From NCBI GenBank assembly GCA_913049555.1, contig CAJWYM010000019.1, positions 1-46,748 of the forward strand: a DNA stretch of 46,748 nt, read 5' to 3'. Numbering within the stretch: the stretch's first letter is position 1; every line of letters begins with the position of its first letter. Source of the DNA: an uncultured Opitutia bacterium. Lineage in GTDB: Bacteria > Verrucomicrobiota > Verrucomicrobiia > Opitutales > CAJWYM01. The position numbers and the translations under genes were made by a program. This document shows positions 1,930-27,180 of this stretch, in pieces. Under the pieces are notes generated by a model. That model was not told where the DNA came from. It saw only the letters and a list, made by a program, of their open reading frames with translations, and made no database searches.

Positions 1930-4239
1930 ATGGATATGCAGCCTCAAAATTCTAGAAAAGCATTGGTAGTTGGTGCAGGTTTTGGAGGCCTCGCAATGAG
2001 TCTTCGTCTTCGCAGGATTGGGTATGAGGTGACTGTGATTGACAACAACCCAAAAGCCGGAGGTCGGGCACAAGTTTACAATCTTAAAAATTATAAATTC
2101 GATGGGGGTCCGACTGTGATCACTGCCCCATTTCTTTTCGACGATCTTTTTGAATTGTTTGGAAAGAAACGTTCCGATTACGTTGATTTTCTTCCTGTTG
2201 AGCCTTGGTACCGCTTTCAATTTGCAGATGGCTCTAAATTGGATTATGGTGGAAGCTTAGAAGATACGATAACTGAAATCAATCGACTTTCTCCTGGTGA
2301 GGGCGAGGGTTATTTACGTCTGGTTGATTTTTCCAAGCGCATCTTTACTGTAGGTTTTGAAAAACTAGCGGATCAATCTTTCCACAAGTTCGGGACCATG
2401 CTTCTACAGGTTCCTTCATTGTTAGCTTTGAAGAGTTATTTGTCTGTGTACGCCTTGGTGAGTAAATTCCTAAAAGAGGATCGATTGCGTAGAGCATTCA
2501 GCATTCACCCATTACTCGTGGGTGGCAATCCTATGCAAACCACCTCTATTTATTGTTTGATTCACTTTTTGGAACGTAAGTGGGGGGTTTGGTTTCCTAA
2601 GGGAGGTACCGGTGCTTTAGTTCAAGCGCTGGTTCAATTGATGAGGGAAGTAGGGATTACACTAGAACTTAATAAACAAGCCACTCAAGTTTTGGTGACC
2701 GACAAAAAGGCTACGGGGATTCGGTTAGAAAGTGGTGAAGAATTGCACGCAGATTTAGTGGTTTTTGATGCAGACCCTCCTAAAGTTTACCGGGACCTTA
2801 TTCCTGAAGAACATCGTCGTAAATGGACAGATAATAAAATCAAGAGGCTTTCTTTTTCTATGGGATTGTTTGTTTGGTACTTTGGCACAAATAAGGCTTA
2901 TCCTGATGTTGAGCACCACACAATTATTATGGGAAATGTATTCAAGGAGTTGCTTGAGGATATTTATGATCGAAAAGTGCTCTCAGAGGATCTAAGCTTG
3001 TATTTGCACCGACCCTCTGCAACGGATCCTGATATGGCTCCGGACGGTGGCGACGCTTTTTATGTTCTAGCCCCGGTTCCAAATCAATTGAGTAAAATTA
3101 ATTGGCAGGAGGCTGGGGAGCGAATTCGCGTTCAAATCCAAAACCAACTGGAAGAATCTCTTCTTCCAGATTTGTCTGAATGTTTGGAAGTTTCTCATTT
3201 TGTTACGCCGGATGATTTTGAAGGTCGTTTCAATACGCTTTGGGGGAGTGGTTTTTCAATTGCTCCTCTATTTAGACAATCTGCTTGGTTTCGTTTTCAC
3301 AACCAGTCTGAAGACCTTAAAAACCTCTACTTTTGCGGAGCAGGCACGCATCCAGGTGCTGGGGTTCCAGGGGTTCTTTCTTCTGCCAAAGTAGTGGAAA
3401 AGTTAGTCCCTCCTTCACAGATTGGTAATGAAAATGAGTTTGAGAGAATTTTTCGCTCTAAGAGTCGCACCTTTTCAATGGCTTCTTTACTTCTTCCTAA
3501 AGAAAGGGCGGATGCGATTTTTAGACTTTATTACATTTGCCGTACTTTAGATGATTGGGCGGACGAAGGACAGAGCGAAAAATTGGTAGAAGCTTTGGAT
3601 TGCTGGACCAACCATCAGCCTCATAAACTATTGGATCATTATCGATTTCTTCAGGCTCGTTGGGGTTTGGATTCACTTCCTTTGACAGAGCTTATGGAGG
3701 CCATGGTAAAAGAACAATCAGGAGTAAAGATTGTTTCTGAATCGGAGTTGATACAATACTGCCACGCAGTTGCAGGAACTATTGGCCTCATGGCTTGTCC
3801 TATATTTGGAGTATCAGATCCAAAAGCTCTCAAACATGCCGACGATCTTGGAATCGCTATGCAACTGACCAATATTTGCAGGGATGTTAGAGAGGATGCC
3901 GAAAATGGTAGGATTTATTTGCCGTCCACTTTTTTTAAATCGGCACCCTCTACCTCGAATCTAATTTCGAACGATCCTTATTGGCTAAAAGAGACCACTG
4001 CCGTTAAGAAGCGGCTTCTTGATTTAGCGGACAAGAGATATGCAAGTGGTGAGGATGGGATTCGGTATTTGCCTTTTAGGGTTCGAATTGTAGTGCGCTG
4101 GGCGGGTAGAATGTATCGAGATATCGGTCAGGTTATTCGAGACGATCCCACTCTCTATTACCATCGAAGGGCTGTTGTTAAAAGTCGAAAAAAGTGGGTA
4201 TTCCTATTGCCGAGTCTTTATCGTGCCTTTATTTCTTAG
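1930..4239 (+). CDS. crtIB: Phytoene desaturase-phytoene synthase fusion (CrtI-CrtB)
   Basis: A single 769-residue chain carries two consecutive carotenoid enzymes. Residues 1 to about 490 are a bacterial-type phytoene desaturase: the N-terminal FAD-binding motif VVGAGFGGLAMSLRLRR, then NPKAGGRA, and the C-terminal signature FCGAGTHPGAGVPGVLSSAK at about 466-486. From about 500 onward it is squalene/phytoene synthase: SKSRTFSMA, first Asp motif DDWAD (541-545), YCHAVAGTIGLMACPIFG, and second motif NICRDVREDAENGRIYLP (648 onward). It would convert GGPP to phytoene and then lycopene. The reading frame is continuous with no stop or restart at the join. ATG at 1930 is used; an in-frame ATG at 1936 is an alternative. 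The gene lies 39 bp after crtE and 6 bp before crtY, in one operon. Both activities are secure; the degree of desaturation is inferred from the cyclase that follows. Confidence 0.94.
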   Translation: MDMQPQNSRKALVVGAGFGGLAMSLRLRRIGYEVTVIDNNPKAGGRAQVYNLKNYKFDGGPTVITAPFLFDDLFELFGKKRSDYVDFLPVEPWYRFQFADGSKLDYGGSLEDTITEINRLSPGEGEGYLRLVDFSKRIFTVGFEKLADQSFHKFGTMLLQVPSLLALKSYLSVYALVSKFLKEDRLRRAFSIHPLLVGGNPMQTTSIYCLIHFLERKWGVWFPKGGTGALVQALVQLMREVGITLELNKQATQVLVTDKKATGIRLESGEELHADLVVFDADPPKVYRDLIPEEHRRKWTDNKIKRLSFSMGLFVWYFGTNKAYPDVEHHTIIMGNVFKELLEDIYDRKVLSEDLSLYLHRPSATDPDMAPDGGDAFYVLAPVPNQLSKINWQEAGERIRVQIQNQLEESLLPDLSECLEVSHFVTPDDFEGRFNTLWGSGFSIAPLFRQSAWFRFHNQSEDLKNLYFCGAGTHPGAGVPGVLSSAKVVEKLVPPSQIGNENEFERIFRSKSRTFSMASLLLPKERADAIFRLYYICRTLDDWADEGQSEKLVEALDCWTNHQPHKLLDHYRFLQARWGLDSLPLTELMEAMVKEQSGVKIVSESELIQYCHAVAGTIGLMACPIFGVSDPKALKHADDLGIAMQLTNICRDVREDAENGRIYLPSTFFKSAPSTSNLISNDPYWLKETTAVKKRLLDLADKRYASGEDGIRYLPFRVRIVVRWAGRMYRDIGQVIRDDPTLYYHRRAVVKSRKKWVFLLPSLYRAFIS

Positions 4240-6722: not shown

Positions 6723-9700
6723 CTATGATTTTAATAGATTGCCATACCTATGAGTTGTTTGAGAAATGCTTTGTTCCAGATAAAAATGCCTCAATTCTTG
6801 GTAGGGATTTAAAAGGATAGGTCCCTCTTGAATTTGAAAATTGTATCTATTGGCTTCTTTCCATGTATTTTTAGAGAGTTTGTGGTCTGTTCGTATCAAT
6901 ATGTTTTGGTTTTCATAATGATTTAAAAATGCGCTGAATTTCTTTTCAGTTTCGAGGACAATTGGCAGACCGGTTGTTTTAACAGTCGTTGAGGGAGACT
7001 GACTCATTATGAATGGAATTTTTGTTATTTTTGAAGCAAAAATGAGTATCAGAATGGATTTCTTTTGGCTTTTGGGTCCTATTCGAAATAATATTCTACT
7101 CCTTTTGACGAAGCGCGTGCAATTGTTCTCTCCAAGAACAGATGCGGATGGTTTTGTGAGGCTAAAGTGATTTTTATTTACATCATAGAAAAATTCGAGT
7201 GACTGGATGATTGGATCCGACTTTTCAATACCCATAAGATCAATTTGCTCCTTGATTTCTGTTGATGATCCTTTGTTGGGTGGATCCTTTTCTTCTATGT
7301 TATGAAGGGTGCCAAGTGAAGACACGTAATGAGGACCTCCAGTTTTTGAACTGCACCCAATCGCAGATTTTTTCCATCCTCCAAAAGGTTGCCTACCAAC
7401 AATGGCTCCAGTAATCGTTCGATTTATATAGAGATTGCCCGCTTGGATTTTCTCGGACCAGATGGATTGTTCTTCAGGATCCAAACTTTCTAATCCAGCT
7501 GTTAGAGCGTATTCGTTGTCGTTTGCCCAATCCAATGCCTCTTGTAAGCTTTCTGCTTTCATAATTCCTAGAACCGGGCCAAAACATTCAGTTCTATGCA
7601 GGAATGAACCTGGTTTTACATGAAGTCTAATCCCTGGTGACCAAAGATTCTTTTTCCCGTTTATTTTTCGAGGCTGTAGCAACCATTCTTCATTTTTTTC
7701 AAGGACTGTAAGCGCTTTTAATAAATTCTCATCGGGTTCTTTGATCAAAGGAGTTACTATATTTTTTAGTGTGAGAGAGGATCCGCATGGCAAACTTTCG
7801 GTTGCCTCTTTTAGCGTGGAAAGGAATGCGTCATATTTGAATCCCACTAAAATAAGCAAGGAACATGCGGAACATTTTTGACCAGAGTGAATAAATGCAG
7901 ATTCAATAATATCTTTAATAGCCAATTCATAATCCGCATTTGGAGTGACTATGATGCTATTATTGCCACTTGTTTCAGCAAGAAGCTTTAAGGTGGGTCG
8001 CCAATCTAAAAATTTTTGAGCGGTTTGATAAGAACCGGTCAACAAAACCCCTTTAAGCCGTTTGTCTGAGATTATGGATTTACCGATTTCATCTTGAGCG
8101 GGAATAAATTGAAGTGCTTTTTTAGGAATACCAGCCTTCCACAAAATATTGATTAATTCCCAGCCGACCCAGATAGCCTCATGGGAGGGCTTAAAAAGCA
8201 CTGTGTTTCCAGCCATTAGCGAGGCAAATATACCCCCTGCTGGAATCGCTAGAGGAAAATTCCATGGCGATGCAATCAAGGTAGGGCCTAGAGGAATAAA
8301 CTGAGTATTTTCGTAAAGTTTTTTTGAATCCCAAGATCTTGCATAATAATTTGCAAAGTCGATACATTCATGGATCTCTATGTCTGATTGATGAATTGAT
8401 TTTGCAGTATCAGATCTCATTGCTTCTAAAAATTTAGAGCGGTTTTTTTGTATCAAAACAGCCGATTTTATTAGAACTTCTTTTCGATATTCGACGCAGG
8501 TTTCTTTCCAATCCTCAAAAGCCTCCTGAGCTGCTTGGATGGCTGAATCCCAATCTTTTAAGGTGATAGAACAGTACTTGTAAATCATTTGACCTGTGTT
8601 AGGACTGTATCCTTGGTTCATTTTAGTATGAATAATTTCTTTTCCATTCACTTGAATCGGAAGAATAAGGTCCAATTTGCAAGTCCAAGATGCCAGATCC
8701 TTTTGTAAATTCTTTTGATTGCTTGGCAAAGACCAATCAGTGTTGGGGATATTTTTGAATGATTTGGAATGCAATGCATCCTTCCATAATTTTTGTTGAT
8801 TTCTCAAGGGCTTGCTTGTTAAGTAAGGAATTTCATCTATGGAACTCTGAAACGCTCGAACTTGAAGATTCCATTTTTCTGAACCAACGTTTAATTGGAA
8901 ACTGTCCCTCAAGAAATTTCCTTCTGTTGTATTTTCCTCTAGCCTTCGAATTAAGTAAGCGATTGCATGTTTAAAATTTTCTTTTTTTACAATGGGGGTA
9001 TACAGCAAAAGAGACTTGTGAAATTTCAGAATTGCGTTGGATTGATTTTCTGCCATCCCATGCAGCATTTCAATTTCGCAGAAGGGTTGAATAGACTCTT
9101 TTTGGATCAAAATAAGTGCATAAGCCAAGTCGAACAGATTGTGCGATGCAATTCCAATATTGGCTGCAATCGCATGGGTCTTAGTGAGTGAGAATTGAAG
9201 CATTCGCTTGTAATTGGCATCTACCAATGTTTTTGTTTTATATATAGGGCAATCCCATCCCTCTAGAGAGCTTGTGACTCGCTCCATGGATAAGTTAGCT
9301 CCTTTTACAATCCTCACTTTAATCGGAGCACCGCCTTGTTTATTTCGAATCCTTGCCCAAGCTGTCAATTCTTTTAGTAAATCGAAAGATTCTGGAATGT
9401 AAGCTTGTAAAACAATTCCGGCTCGGAAGTCTTTAAACTCCTCTTCGTCTAAAACCTCTTTAAATGCTTGAATACTTAAATGAAGATCTCGATTGGCCTC
9501 CATATCAAGATTAACAAATTTATTTCCAACTTGGATTGCAATTTTAAATAAATATCTGAGACGATTTTTAATAATCTTCAAGGAGCTTTGATGAGCAATT
9601 GGGTTTATTTGACTGTAGAGATTGGAGATTTTTATCGATACGTAGTTAACCTCAGGTTTCTCTAGTAATTCTTTAAATTGTTGGATTTTCTCATGCGCTT

Positions 9701-22359: not shown

Positions 22360-22518
22360 ATGCTCACAATCCTAGTAGGCATCCTCTACTTTGTAATCAA
22401 AGCCGCTGACTCTTCAGAATTTCAATATGGATTGACTCCAATCGGATGTAAAATCTATATTAGTCTCTTTGTTTTGATAAATACCCGAAAGGATTATTTA
22501 TCTCGTCATTATCATTAA
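22360..22518 (+). CDS. Possible small protein (52 aa), unknown
   Basis: An ATG-initiated ORF reading MLTILVGILYFVIKAADSSE, then FQYGLTPIGCKIYISLFVLI and a basic end (NTRKDYLSRHYH). It has two hydrophobic stretches and resembles a tiny membrane protein. No strong ribosome binding site is visible. The ORF ends 2 bp before the displaced tRNA-Arg 5' half, and its last third overlaps where the original tRNA promoter should lie (TTGATA at 22474-22479). That overlap makes it doubtful. Confidence 0.3.
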   Translation: MLTILVGILYFVIKAADSSEFQYGLTPIGCKIYISLFVLINTRKDYLSRHYH

Positions 22519-22520
22519 GC

Positions 22521-22561
22521 AGTCCCCATAGTTCAACGGATAGAACAATAGTTTCCTAAAC
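22521..22561 (+). repeat. Left attachment site: displaced 5' half of tRNA-Arg
   Basis: Identical over 41 bp to 27105-27145; the flanking bases differ at both ends (c versus t before, g versus t after). It contains the tRNA 5' acceptor strand, D arm and anticodon loop but no 3' half, so it cannot make a tRNA. It marks the left end of the element. Confidence 0.88.
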
Positions 22562-23063
22562 GACATCCATATACCCCGAATCCCGCAAAGCCCCTAAAAC
22601 AGGCATACTAAAAAAATATTTTTTTTGCAAAGTCGTTTATTTGTTCATTTTATAGCGTTTATTCTTGCCTTATCCTTGCCTTCTATCAACAGTACAAACT
22701 ATTCTATGTATACCCCACTAGCACGCCCGCTATGTTTTTCAGAATACGCATTTATGTCCATAATAAAAAAAGCCATGGGGGGCTTGAGATCTTACTCTAA
22801 TTATACTTTTGATTTACAAGTAGAGCGACTGCATGAAAAGAGGCTCAATTCTTTCTTAGGCTCTATAATCATTATTGCTTAAGAGGCGACAAAAAGAACT
22901 GATTTTATCTCATTTTCTTTATTAAGGGGTTAAGTGGTCTTTAAGTTACTATCTTTATTGAATATACGAAGTATAAAATGTATTTTGCACCCCTAAGAAT
23001 GAACATTTCTCATCATGTTAAAGATTTCACTAGAAATTTCTAACTTTCCGTTGAGAATAATAG
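22562..23063. other. Left non-coding end of the element
   Basis: About 500 bp without a convincing gene. An 85-codon ORF at 22625-22882 starts with TTG and has no ribosome binding site or family resemblance. The stretch holds the left arm-type octamers (22664-22682) and a short hairpin AAGCC-ATGGGG-GGCTT (22770-22785). It also holds an AT-rich leader before the rep GTG. A replication origin would be expected here but could not be identified. Confidence 0.4.
22664..22682 (+). promoter_or_regulatory. Left arm-type recombinase binding sites (tandem CTTGCCTT)
   Basis: CTTGCCTT occurs at 22664-22671 and 22675-22682, spaced 11 bp, about 100 bp inside the left core. The same pair with the same spacing and orientation, again preceded by ATT and followed by TATCA, occurs near the right core. 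Paired arm sites are typical of lambda-type integrases. Confidence 0.6.
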
Positions 23064-23711
23064 GTGAAGAAGAAAGCACCTAAAGCATATTGTCCCAGAA
23101 CTGAAAAAAAAGTCATTGAGACAATAGAAGATTTTATTTCGAGGGATTACTGGAAAAACTACTATCATTTCTGCCTTACAACAAATCTGGACGCAAAAGA
23201 AGTCGATTATGTTAATGCAGTGTCAAAGTCATTTAGAGATAGTTTCAGGCGTTACTGTAACAAAAAGAAGAATAGATTTGTTTGTGGTGTTTATGTGACT
23301 GAGTTCTCAGAAGGGCAATCAAAGGTTCATTATCATTATTTATTGAATTTTGGGGGCAAGATAAGTGATAGCAAACTTAGAGAATACAAGACATATATAA
23401 GAAGCTCTTGGCATAACAGGTTTATTGATGATTTTGGTAATTGTAGTTTAAACAAGAAGTTATCCCTTCATTGGAAGATAGAAAGTAAAGACCATCTATT
23501 TAACCTACCTGCTTACTTTGCAAAGTCTGGAGATAATAGAAAAGTAACTCAAAAACGTCCGAAAATTCCGCTCAAGTCACATATTCATTATGTAAGCTAC
23601 TTGAATAAATCTCGCTTCAGTGAAGTCGGGCAATCTGGAACTTATAAGAAAAACAAAAATCATCAACTTGCCTTTTTAGTAGATACTAACTTTGAAGAAT
23701 TGCCTTTTTAG
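23064..23711 (+). CDS. HUH-family Rep-like endonuclease (rolling-circle replication initiator)
   Basis: A 215-residue protein starting at GTG. Three motifs typical of rolling-circle initiators appear in the right order. Motif I is YHFCLTT (36-40). Motif II is the metal-binding HUH pair VHYHYLL (His89, His91). Motif III is AYFAKS with a single catalytic Tyr151 and Lys154. It would nick one strand at an origin and form a 5'-phosphotyrosine link. A relaxase or inovirus Gp2-like function is an alternative reading, because the size and layout also fit those. It is the only plus-strand gene in the element and opposes the others. AT-rich inverted TTATAATT/AATTATAA at 23731-23757 follows the stop and may end transcription. 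The motif pattern is clear; the exact family is not. Confidence 0.65.
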   Translation: MKKKAPKAYCPRTEKKVIETIEDFISRDYWKNYYHFCLTTNLDAKEVDYVNAVSKSFRDSFRRYCNKKKNRFVCGVYVTEFSEGQSKVHYHYLLNFGGKISDSKLREYKTYIRSSWHNRFIDDFGNCSLNKKLSLHWKIESKDHLFNLPAYFAKSGDNRKVTQKRPKIPLKSHIHYVSYLNKSRFSEVGQSGTYKKNKNHQLAFLVDTNFEELPF

Positions 23712-23897
23712 TGAGCATCATTCTTTAAGTTATAATTTTTTTTAAAGTTAATTATAATTACAGAGAAATTGTTTTAAATTCCATATTACACCTTATTACG
23801 TGAAGAGCATGACAGTATGATTCATTTTTGAAGCTATATAAAGCCCCCTCAAGCACCCTAAGATCTCTCTTTATGCAATATCAAGCATTTACTGGCT

Positions 23898-24305
23898 TTA
23901 AACATATACTTTAAAGTATCCGTCTATTTTTCCAGCTCCGTAATCGTCATTAAATGAACCTGAAATTTTTAATGTTGGGAACTTTTCAAGAAGAAATACA
24001 AGTTCCCCTTCTTCACCACTTACAGCTATATTATTGATGTTTTCGTTTGCATAAGTCGTCAAACGGACAAAGTATTGCTTTCTCTTATTAACTTTTTTGA
24101 TACGACCATAAGTAAACCCCCATGTAGATATTTTTGCCCTATCAGGATTTTCCCTCCAGAATTTGCTCCAATCGCCCGCCTCATTCATTTCCTTACAAAC
24201 CTCCTTAAAATGAAATTCTTTATCATCTAAGTAGTCTAAGACCTTATTAAGGTAAATTTTACTTTTATGAGTAAATGTGAGCTTATAAGTAGTATCGTTG
24301 GACAT
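23898..24305 (-). CDS. Unknown element protein (135 aa)
   Basis: No family recognised. The protein begins MSNDTTYKLTFTHKSKIYLN and is rich in charged and aromatic residues (DWSKFWRENPDRAKISTWGF). It ends in a beta-like segment (GELVFLLEKFPTLKISGSFN followed by DDYGAGKIDGYFKVYV). No signal peptide or membrane segment is seen. A second, internally deleted copy lies at 25548-25642, and the upstream regions of both are also similar, so the gene was once duplicated together with its promoter region. The segment VRLTTYANENINNI...LVFLLEKF loosely resembles LRFSVNSTHNATCY...LLFLLDNF in the neighbouring 306-residue protein, suggesting a shared domain. The function is unknown; it is cargo or a replication/maintenance gene of the element. 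Confidence 0.7.
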   Translation of the reverse strand: MSNDTTYKLTFTHKSKIYLNKVLDYLDDKEFHFKEVCKEMNEAGDWSKFWRENPDRAKISTWGFTYGRIKKVNKRKQYFVRLTTYANENINNIAVSGEEGELVFLLEKFPTLKISGSFNDDYGAGKIDGYFKVYV

Positions 24306-24328
24306 ATTTTCACATTGATTTTAAAAAA

Positions 24329-24430
24329 TTCGTAAGACATTCATTAAAAATGCATTGCGAGCAAATATTCTTTTTTTTTACAAAATTATAATTATTGATT
24401 ATCAATGATTCACAAGCCCTAAATTACGAA
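24329..24430. repeat. Repeat copy R1 bounded by TTCGTAA/TTACGAA
   Basis: Lies directly upstream of the 135-aa gene. It is bounded by inverted TTCGTAA (24329-24335) and TTACGAA (24424-24430). Its sequence is collinear with R2 (25663-25756), sharing TCGTAAGACATT near one end and ATCAATGATT(C/T)AC near the other. It probably holds the promoter and operator of the gene. Confidence 0.6.
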
Positions 24431-24558
24431 CAATAAAAGTAAGGCATTAAATGAAAGTGATTTAAGAATTCATTTAAAGTATTCAAAAAAACTACTTTTA
24501 CTGATAATCAACATCTTGCAGTTTTAAGGGCATTATTTAACATTAGATTCTGCAAGTA

Positions 24559-25479
24559 TCAGTAAGACCAGTCCGTGTTTTTAGCGTCTTCTCTTATGTA
24601 GATTTCTTTTAGTTCCTGCCTTGTCTTTCCAAACTTTGCTTGAGCGGCTCTAAAAACTTGATTTTCTGATTCTACAGGATCTTTACCTGAATCCATCATT
24701 CTCATTTGTCTTTCGAACATATAGCGGAATATTTTATAGTCCTCTGATTGACTTGAAGTATGGCTTTCAGTTGTTGAATAGCCATAATCGTCACTCGGAC
24801 TGCTTGAAGAATAACTTAAAGTGCCGTGAATCACTGCAATGAATAATGCACCAAAGATTATTAAAGCTGAAACTATAGTAAATTTTTCCTTTAACGTATA
24901 TTCATCTTCATGTTTATTATTAGATTTGTGGCTGTTGTTTTGTGGAGGAATATTATTAGTATGACTTTTTGAATTTTTTAAGTTTAACAATTGAATATCT
25001 ATTCTCAAGTCTCCTATTTTATATTGCTTTCCTTTTTCTGGGTAAGATTCGCTGACATCTTTAACTACAAGAGTAAAGTCATCAGGCATCGAAAAGTTGT
25101 CGAGTAAGAATAAAAGCGCCGCATCTTTATGGCATGTAACACTATGAGTTTCATTAGTGTAGTAGCAAGTTGCATTATGAGTGCTATTCACACTAAATCT
25201 CAAGCTAAGTTTTTTCTTTTTTTCAGGGATAAAACTAGACTCATTTTCTTGTGGCTTATATGTATTTTTAGCACTATTCAGTTCTTGAATTGAAAACGAG
25301 TACGCAGATGAAAATTCTCCATCATCATAAGCTTCTCGAACTTCAATTATTTCATCATATTGAAGATTTTTTACCATGCTAGAGTTCTCATTGATAAACT
25401 TTATTGCAGAACCTAAGTGGTCTAAGGCATCTTCAATTATAAAACTAGATCCGTCAGGTAGAGATACTTTAAAATTCAT
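24559..25479 (-). CDS. Unknown single-pass membrane protein of the element (306 aa)
   Basis: No family recognised. Residues 1-170 form a soluble domain (MNFKVSLPDGSSFIIEDALD at the start; LSLRFSVNSTHNATCY near 91; DAALLFLLDNFSMPDDFTLV near 119). A low-complexity Asn/Ser/His linker (about 170-195) follows, then one membrane helix (about 200-222, FTIVSALIIFGALFIAVIHG). A Ser-rich stretch and a charged C-terminal helical region (about 245-306) come last. The middle of the soluble domain resembles part of the 135-aa protein next door. The stop overlaps an inverted repeat (CTTGCAG at 24515-24521, CTGCAAG at 24550-24556, with outer ACTGATA/TATCAGT). Role unknown; the topology would suit an envelope or sensing protein. 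Confidence 0.7.
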   Translation of the reverse strand: MNFKVSLPDGSSFIIEDALDHLGSAIKFINENSSMVKNLQYDEIIEVREAYDDGEFSSAYSFSIQELNSAKNTYKPQENESSFIPEKKKKLSLRFSVNSTHNATCYYTNETHSVTCHKDAALLFLLDNFSMPDDFTLVVKDVSESYPEKGKQYKIGDLRIDIQLLNLKNSKSHTNNIPPQNNSHKSNNKHEDEYTLKEKFTIVSALIIFGALFIAVIHGTLSYSSSSPSDDYGYSTTESHTSSQSEDYKIFRYMFERQMRMMDSGKDPVESENQVFRAAQAKFGKTRQELKEIYIREDAKNTDWSY

Positions 25480-25547
25480 GTTAATAGTGTTAATGAGGTT
25501 TCTTATTTATTACCATTTAATTCTACTGATAATTCTTATAACATTGA

Positions 25548-25642
25548 TCAATCAATCAATCCTTGCTCGCATTCATCCGTAACAGACCCTGCAATTTTCA
25601 TTGAAGGGTAAATCTTAGATTGTATTGAGTGGCATTTGACAT
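25548..25642 (-). pseudogene. Internally deleted relic of the 135-aa gene
   Basis: From ATG 25642 the minus strand reads MSNATQYNLRFT, matching MSNDTTYKLTFT at the start of the 135-aa protein, then stops in that frame. In another frame it continues KIYPSMKIAGSVTDECEQGL before a stop at 25550-25548, matching KFPTLKISGSFNDDYGAGKI at the C-terminus of the same protein. About 90 central codons are missing. The upstream region (R2) matches that of the intact gene (R1). Confidence 0.75.
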
Positions 25643-25662
25643 TTAACATACTTTCGAGGTAA

Positions 25663-25756
25663 AAGTTTCGTAAGACATTTATTTAAAACTATATAACAAA
25701 CAAATGCTAGATTTTTACGAGATTATTTTATTAAAAATCAATGATTTACGAAACTT
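25663..25756. repeat. Repeat copy R2 with perfect 11-bp terminal inverted repeats
   Basis: AAGTTTCGTAA (25663-25673) and TTACGAAACTT (25746-25756) are perfect inverted repeats enclosing an AT-rich core similar to R1. It lies just upstream of the deleted relic and about 180 bp upstream of the 306-aa gene. It could be a regulatory region duplicated with the gene, or a short mobile repeat. The rest of the 25480-25838 gap holds a (GATT)n run near 25541-25560 and nothing else recognised. Confidence 0.65.
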
Positions 25757-25838
25757 CTAATCACCCCACTCAATCAATTGATCCTTAAAACAAGCATAAG
25801 CTTTCAAGTTAGTAAAAAAGGGAAAGAAAACTCATAAA

Positions 25839-26987
25839 CTATCCAATACTAAAGAATTGTTCTGCTTCTTGTTTTGTTGCTAAAGCTCTATAGTGTGACT
25901 GTATCACATCAGGACTATTACCCATAGTATCTGCGGTTAAATTCTCACTACTAATTAACGCAAGGTAGTATGTTCCAAAACTGTGACGCAATATATCATG
26001 TTTCCACTCAATTTTTGCTTTCTTTTTTAGCTTATCAAACATCTTGCGCAAGTTTTTTGGTCTTACAGGTGAATCCCTGCAAGATTCGAGCAATTTTTTC
26101 GCATTTGGTGGAATGACCGCAATTCGCATCTTTCTTTTCTTGGCAATAGTTTCTTCAATTCTCACGCAAGGTTTATCAGAGTCGAGGTCTATCTTGTTCC
26201 ATGTTAATTGTTCAGCCTCAGACGGTCTAATTCCACAAAACAAACAAAGTGTTAAGTATGGCAACAAGAGACCGCTTTCTTCTGATTTCGCAAGTGACAC
26301 AATTCTTTCAGACTCTTCTATTGAAAGTATGTGTGCAGAACTCCAATCCAGCTTAATTTTATTAAGATTCTTTGCAGGGTTCAAAGCAGTCCAACCTTTT
26401 CTTATACAGTAATTAAAGTACGCATTAAAAATCCTAAGGGCGTTGTTTTGTGTTTGGTGGCTATATTTTTTATTATAGATATACGGCTTGATGTTTTCTT
26501 CTGAAATTGAGCTTACATGCTTATAGCCATGCTTTTTAAGAAAGGCTTTCATCATGCTATTATATTCATTTATTGTTCCCGCTCTTAATTTGTCTCGTTT
26601 CTTTGAAGTAATTAAGTCTTCAAAGGCTAATTGAACACGAATCTCTTTCCTTGGGGAATGCTGGAGAAAGAAATCGACAACAGAACTTAAGGATACATTT
26701 GGAGGGAGTTTGTCAAAAGCACTTGAAGCATCATTGATTTGTGTTTGAGTTAAAACAGTAGTAACAAAGTTTTGTTTTATTGATAAAGATTTCTCTTTCG
26801 CTTGTAACTCTTCTATGAATCTTTCTGCTTGCCAACGTTCAGGGAACTTTTTTGAAAACGGTTTCTTCTCTATAGTAGCTGTTACTCTAAAGTAAGTCGT
26901 GCCACTCTCATATTTTTCACGCTTACAAGTGAACTTAATCTTCTTGCCATCCCTATAGGTGATTTCATACTTTAAAGGCTTTCTCAT
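25839..26987 (-). CDS. Tyrosine recombinase (integrase) of the element
   Basis: A 382-residue site-specific recombinase that would integrate and excise the element at tRNA-Arg. The N-terminal region has an arm-binding-like beta segment (about 1-60), followed by a SAM-like core-binding domain (about 95-200; AGTINEYNSMMKAFLKKHGY). The catalytic domain has Arg254 in CGIRPSEAEQL, a Lys in the beta-hairpin near 282-287, His330 and Arg334 in HDILRHSFG, and the nucleophile Tyr366 in SHYRAL. The second His of the usual RHRHY set is Asn357 (MGNSPDVIQSHY), a substitution I associate with Verrucomicrobia integrases. The gene ends are intact. It starts 118 bp from the right attachment core and reads away from it. 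Confidence 0.9.
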   Translation of the reverse strand: MRKPLKYEITYRDGKKIKFTCKREKYESGTTYFRVTATIEKKPFSKKFPERWQAERFIEELQAKEKSLSIKQNFVTTVLTQTQINDASSAFDKLPPNVSLSSVVDFFLQHSPRKEIRVQLAFEDLITSKKRDKLRAGTINEYNSMMKAFLKKHGYKHVSSISEENIKPYIYNKKYSHQTQNNALRIFNAYFNYCIRKGWTALNPAKNLNKIKLDWSSAHILSIEESERIVSLAKSEESGLLLPYLTLCLFCGIRPSEAEQLTWNKIDLDSDKPCVRIEETIAKKRKMRIAVIPPNAKKLLESCRDSPVRPKNLRKMFDKLKKKAKIEWKHDILRHSFGTYYLALISSENLTADTMGNSPDVIQSHYRALATKQEAEQFFSIG

Positions 26988-27031
26988 GTCTTATTTAAAA
27001 TAAAATCTTTTTTTATAAGAATCAACATATT

Positions 27032-27050
27032 CTTGCCTTTAGCTTGCCTT
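27032..27050 (+). promoter_or_regulatory. Right arm-type recombinase binding sites (tandem CTTGCCTT)
   Basis: CTTGCCTT at 27032-27039 and 27043-27050, with the same 11-bp spacing and strand as the left pair, lies about 55 bp before the right core and upstream of the integrase start. Binding here could also repress the integrase promoter. Confidence 0.6.
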
Positions 27051-27104
27051 TATCATTTCATTAAAAACTGCCAATATAACACAAGTCATTGCCTTAGAAT
27101 ACTT

Positions 27105-27145
27105 AGTCCCCATAGTTCAACGGATAGAACAATAGTTTCCTAAAC
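27105..27145 (+). repeat. Right attachment site within tRNA-Arg
   Basis: Second copy of the 41-bp repeat. It runs from one base before the tRNA to tRNA nucleotide 40. The crossover must lie in this interval, plausibly near the anticodon loop (TTCCTAA). Confidence 0.88.
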
Positions 27146-27180
27146 TGCAGATCTGGGTTCGATTCCCAGTGGGGGCACCA
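27106..27180 (+). tRNA. tRNA-Arg (CCU)
   Basis: Acceptor GTCCCCA pairs with TGGGGGC, with a G-T wobble at position 2, followed by A and an encoded CCA. The D arm is GTTC-AACGGATA-GAAC, the anticodon loop TTCCTAA (anticodon CCT) and the T arm TGGGT-TCGATTC-CCAGT... The anticodon stem ATAGT/ACTGC has a weak base (A-C mismatch and T-G wobble). The 5' half up to nucleotide 40 lies in the element's attachment repeat, so the gene is a junction product. A possible -10 TAGAAT (27095-27100) lies in element DNA. Confidence 0.9.

Follow-up and report, generated by a model that had tools for sequence, protein, structure and literature searches.

A 4.58-kb element between two copies of the 5′ half of tRNA-Arg(CCU) in an uncultured Opitutia bacterium: a candidate tRNA-5′-half integrator

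Introduction

Elements integrated at tRNA genes usually share the 3′ half of the gene with their target, so that the gene keeps its promoter. Use of the 5′ half is seldom met in bacteria, according to a review citing Williams 2002 (PMC8371274), and in the Islander survey 159 of 3919 islands have a 5′ tDNA fragment (PMC4383910), which agrees with the premise of the original prediction that most tRNA-targeting elements use the 3′ half; the 5′ type is thus rare, with precedent. One precedent is pTN3 of Thermococcus nautili, which has a 41-bp block in common with its tRNA-Leu target, anticodon included, and whose integration rebuilds the tRNA-Leu gene away from its original promoter (PMC5495485).

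Here we describe an element at a tRNA-Arg(CCU) gene which, like the 5′ type of Islander, carries an integrase and lies between a displaced 5′ fragment and the intact gene, with an anticodon-centred site and the correct order and orientation. It differs in being small (4.6 kb), in encoding a probable Rep and in having no recognised phage or conjugation genes; Islander gives counts, and not the host group of this element. As in pTN3, the shared block is 41 bp long and includes the anticodon, and the rebuilt tRNA would be parted from its original promoter. In contrast, pTN3 is an archaeal plasmid that targets tRNA-Leu and carries attP within its integrase gene, which is split on integration, whereas the integrase gene studied here is whole and divergent from the tRNA. 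Ordinary 3′-half islands are the mirror image of the present element, since in them it is the 3′ half that element and target have in common, and the tRNA retains its own promoter; they have in common with it a tyrosine integrase and an anticodon-loop boundary, and homologous integrases of the same phylum use the 3′ mode. In the tRNA-dependent lysogeny of actinobacteriophages, host tRNA function likewise depends on element sequence after integration, but the core measures about 10 bp, no tRNA is rebuilt, and a complete tRNA gene comes with the phage (PMC10865867); in our case the gene would be rebuilt by the 41-bp block, and ARAGORN finds no tRNA gene inside the element. The kind of element is therefore known but uncommon, and its assignment as a tRNA-5′-half integrator is well supported.

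Results

The window (the whole stretch of 46,748 nucleotides analysed) contains two plus-strand copies of a 41-bp block, at 22521..22561 and 27105..27145, which are 100% identical and spaced 4584 bp apart, as stated earlier. The block corresponds to nt 1-40 of tRNA-Arg(CCU) plus one upstream A, and identity breaks off within the anticodon stem-loop, in its 3′ part. The right copy, on the attR side, forms the 5′ half of an intact tRNA-Arg(CCU) gene called by ARAGORN (27106..27180, plus strand). The left copy, on the attL side, with the old chromosomal upstream region still attached, is best read as the displaced 5′ half; its match to the tRNA (E = 5e-15 in a 3.1-Mb genome) is far beyond chance. 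The exact copies and the ARAGORN call bear out the original prediction that the direct repeat is the 5′ half of the tRNA and that the element lies upstream of the intact gene. The host genome is a draft (3.10 Mb, 102 contigs, 95% complete), throughout which the only good matches to tRNA-Arg(CCU) are 22521-22561 and 27106-27180; the second tRNA-Arg(CCU) for which a search had been proposed was not found in this draft, and the intact gene is the sole such copy detected. As in Islander-type calls of the 5′ class, the fragment lies upstream of the intact tRNA on the same strand and the same replicon, with a non-Xer PF00589 integrase between them and a length within 2-200 kb.

Left to right, the 4584-bp interval encodes a 215-aa protein, two orphans of 135 and 306 aa and a tyrosine integrase of 382 aa. 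The integrase gene (25839..26987, minus strand) is divergent from the tRNA, its start lying 118 bp from tRNA-Arg(CCU), and its product matches PF00589 (E = 6e-9) and PHROG_1 (E = 7e-25) while scoring far under every Xer and integron-integrase cut-off. The reading frame is intact; Arg is conserved in boxes I and II, as is the Tyr. Where box II should have His/Trp the protein has Asn, which counts against the integrator reading; the same residue is found in 31 of 56 homologues. The frame does not overlap the 41-bp block, and attP is accordingly not inside the integrase gene.

The 215-aa protein (23064..23711, plus strand) is a probable HUH-type rolling-circle Rep, assigned from the ordered motifs FCLTT, VHYHYLLN and YFAK read from its translation. 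No match was found in family profiles, plasmids, phages, PDB, PF11726 or IMG/VR, and its AF2 model (pLDDT 38) was too poor for a fold search. The 135-aa orphan (23898..24305) and the 306-aa orphan (24559..25479; possible membrane segment), open reading frames on the minus strand, gave no significant family match, and the idea that they are paralogues was unsupported. No excisionase was recognised in the element. Two diverged copies of a block of about 90 bp (24318-24417 and 25656-25763) precede the two cargo genes of the minus strand. The copy at 25656-25763, which includes an IHF-like site, forms a strong imperfect palindrome (z = -3.5 for the ssDNA fold). Possibly, these blocks are a Rep origin, a regulatory region or a cassette boundary.

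Near each end of the element lies a tandem pair of CTTGCCTT on the plus strand, at 22664..22682 on the left (copies at 22664 and 22675) and at 27032..27050 on the right (copies at 27032 and 27043), the copies being 11 bp apart in both pairs. A tandem word common to both ends was produced by none of 20000 dinucleotide shuffles and by none of 5000 random window pairs. Arm-type integrase sites of lambda-type att sites resemble such tandem words near both ends. The CTTGCCTT pairs flank the core on both sides, as would arm-type sites, and are putative binding sites of the integrase. Between the right pair and the tRNA there is a weak IHF-like site, CAAGTCATTGCCT (27082..27094, plus strand; 2 mismatches), which alone is not significant; stronger sites occur at the matching position in sibling elements (see below), and the host genome has two HU/IHF-family genes. 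In a lambda-type attP the core is likewise flanked on either side by arm-type direct repeats, with, as in the siblings, an IHF-like site between; in contrast, the arm words differ between the elements studied here, and the likeness is one of sequence symmetry only.

A search of 388 genomes of the phylum yielded 56 integrase homologues, and the comparison took in as much as 10 kb of flanking DNA on each side. Two layouts dominate: the ordinary one, in which the integrase lies 3′ of a tRNA on the same strand (19 cases), and a 5′ layout, in which it lies 5′ of the tRNA on the opposite strand (10 cases, including the window). An integrase 2.6 kb from tRNA-Arg(CCU) in G002, behind other genes, was not counted. 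In a maximum-likelihood tree, seven of the 10 5′-layout integrases fall in an 11-row clade (support 92/90), with the window integrase on a long branch outside it; the tree requires six state changes, which implies repeated gain or loss of the 5′ layout.

Whole-genome searches revealed a separate 40-45-nt copy of the 5′ half of the adjoining tRNA in eight of the nine other 5′-layout genomes, against about 3 of 90 other genome-tRNA combinations, the latter count being made by reading the listed matches (Fisher p = 8e-9). The tRNA concerned is Arg(TCT) in G384, G326 and G308 (the last with two separate copies), Arg(CCT) in G110, Thr(TGT) in G162, Ser(CGA) in G167, Leu(TAG) in G179 and Ser(TGA) in G406, and every fragment runs from tRNA nt 1 to the anticodon loop. 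Tandem words are found upstream of the intact tRNA at about -70 (-85 in G406), and in the window, G384, G308, G326, G167, G179 and G406 the same words recur, again in tandem, 100-131 bp beyond the displaced fragment on its downstream side. Almost each element has its own word: seven of eight own pairs (window included) match at both ends as against two of 56 cross pairs, and none of 3000 shuffles per element gives an arm word at both ends. These matches link element ends found on separate contigs, and they show that the sequence immediately upstream of these tRNA genes belongs to the elements. Moreover, an IHF-like site is found at -22 to -24 in G384, G308, G110, G167 and a G116 fragment, perfect in G384, G308 and the G116 fragment and near-perfect in the others. 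Not all siblings conform. In G110 a single arm-word copy is followed by the contig end. Against the integrator reading, the G162 fragment has no matching arm word, and it therefore probably bounds another element; also against it, no fragment was found in some 70 kb read upstream of the tRNA of G179, which has about 97 kb upstream on its contig, so that this element would be very large or rearranged. Attempts to join sibling contigs by their ends found no overlaps, and the use of mismatches between fragment and intact gene (G326, G167) to place the crossover was rejected, the positions being too variable among relatives.

Discussion

We consider it very probable that the 4.58-kb element bounded by 22521 and 27145 is a tRNA-5′-half integrator, with an attP that carries nt 1-40 of tRNA-Arg(CCU), and that its integrase made the insertion. 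The tyrosine integrase would bind the tandem arm-type sites on either side of attP and recombine attP with the host tRNA gene, strand exchange taking place at the anticodon loop or close to it. On the left, the chromosomal 5′ half would remain joined to the old upstream region, and the 3′ half would be joined to the identical 5′ half of the element and to element upstream DNA, so that the gene would be whole and yet begin from element sequence. The sibling elements, with the same anatomy, back the earlier view that the left copy is the displaced half of an integrated element; they also favour the proposal that loss of the element restores the gene, as precise excision would do. The excised circle may replicate, as the probable HUH-type Rep suggests. 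Because the two 41-bp copies are identical, we infer the crossover point and, with it, the physical origin of the tRNA 5′ half from where the identity stops and from the sibling elements.

The empty site that had been expected, joining 22521-22561 directly to 27146, was not found by flank synteny. The collections searched contain no genome of the family of the host and no close relatives, and the order-level relatives share no flanking genes around tRNA-Arg, so that an empty site could not be seen; a synteny search within the family of G326 likewise gave none. IMG/VR contains neither attP/attB junctions nor homologues of the integrase, and no excised circle was seen in the junction search. It is therefore conceivable, if somewhat unlikely, that integration was site-specific but that the element can no longer move, for instance because it has lost an excisionase or its integrase has become inactive, and that the Rep is a relic. 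The absence of the junctions from IMG/VR, of a recognised excisionase and of detectable relatives of the Rep would fit such a history. In contrast, all frames are intact and the two 41-bp copies do not differ, which means that the insertion is either recent or maintained, and Asn at box II is frequent in the integrase family.

The reading of the element as a 5′-half integrator has consequences for expression of the tRNA. It had been proposed that every tRNA-Arg(CCU) must use a 5′ half and a promoter that came with the element. By topology, the upstream flank of the intact gene is certainly element DNA; as the copies are identical, it is the only part of which this is certain, and the claim for the 5′ half was too strong. 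The integrase gene points away from the tRNA, into which no gene on the plus strand runs, a geometry that makes capture of the tRNA by an element-borne promoter likely. No consensus promoter match of at least 9/12 occurs in 26988-27105. The promoter-like sequence TTGACT-N18-TATATT (22432..22461, plus strand; 10/12 consensus bases) lies upstream of the displaced half and may be the original tRNA promoter. A stronger proposal is that the tRNA is under the control of the element: the 118 bp that separate the integrase and tRNA genes would drive both, and bound integrase or a host factor would alter the supply of tRNA-Arg(CCU). This region is element DNA, is common to the divergent integrase gene and holds an arm pair; the best promoter-like match, near the left copy, is now severed from the intact gene; and separation of a tRNA from its original promoter is documented for pTN3. 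We regard such control as unlikely all the same, because promoter-like matches are as frequent in shuffles as in the real sequence, and because tRNA-Arg(UCU), also present in the host genome, may read AGG, so that dependence on tRNA-Arg(CCU) is not certain.

It is highly improbable that the left copy arose when part of the tRNA gene was duplicated by chance, and that the integrase region between the copies is unrelated or dead: the missing empty site and the deviation of the integrase at one catalytic position could be read in its favour, but the repeat has tRNA nt 1 and the anticodon loop as its exact boundaries, the arm-type pairs are symmetric relative to the ends, sibling elements at other tRNAs have the same anatomy, and the integrase frame is intact.

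In the open literature we found no description of repeated 5′-half use by related integrases of one phylum, and this use, together with the shared att architecture, appears to be new. The window element and at least six others with homologous integrases have the 5′ half in common with their target, so that the transcription-start region of the tRNA would be element-derived. A broader proposal, rather doubtful at present, is that the phylum harbours a lineage of tyrosine integrases specialised on the 5′ half of many tRNAs (Arg, Leu, Ser, perhaps Thr), each rebuilt tRNA being placed under an element-owned control region that overlaps the integrase sites, which would couple tRNA supply to element maintenance. 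The window element and its siblings are natural cases in which to test element control of host tRNA supply, as well as how integrases switch between tRNA halves.

Several other loci deserve mention. The two 5′-half copies in G308 (L158, G308:C52, and L159, G308:C38) are both of the same tRNA-Arg(UCU); upstream of one of them is what looks like an element end, suggestive of tandem insertion. At L089 (G116:C72, 3374-3419), an integrase lies beside a tRNA-Ser(CGA) 5′ half with no 3′ half, chromosomal-looking genes following directly; secondary-site integration or decay is possible. At L047 (G040:C8), a tRNA-Arg(CCU) 5′-half copy (3368-3411) lies 5.3 kb upstream of the intact gene (8639-8713); large genes fill the interval, and since neither an integrase nor arm repeats were seen there, we count this locus as no more than a possible decayed case. 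In G035:C2 (L048/L049; near 555107, 582183 and 598496) two tRNA-Arg(CCU) genes, both intact, are separated by 27 kb, and an inverted 5′-half copy lies 16 kb beyond them. Finally, at L096, L098, L129, L136, L137 and L115 the integrase is not beside an intact tRNA and adjoins instead the displaced 3′ fragment that marks the opposite end of a 3′-type element.
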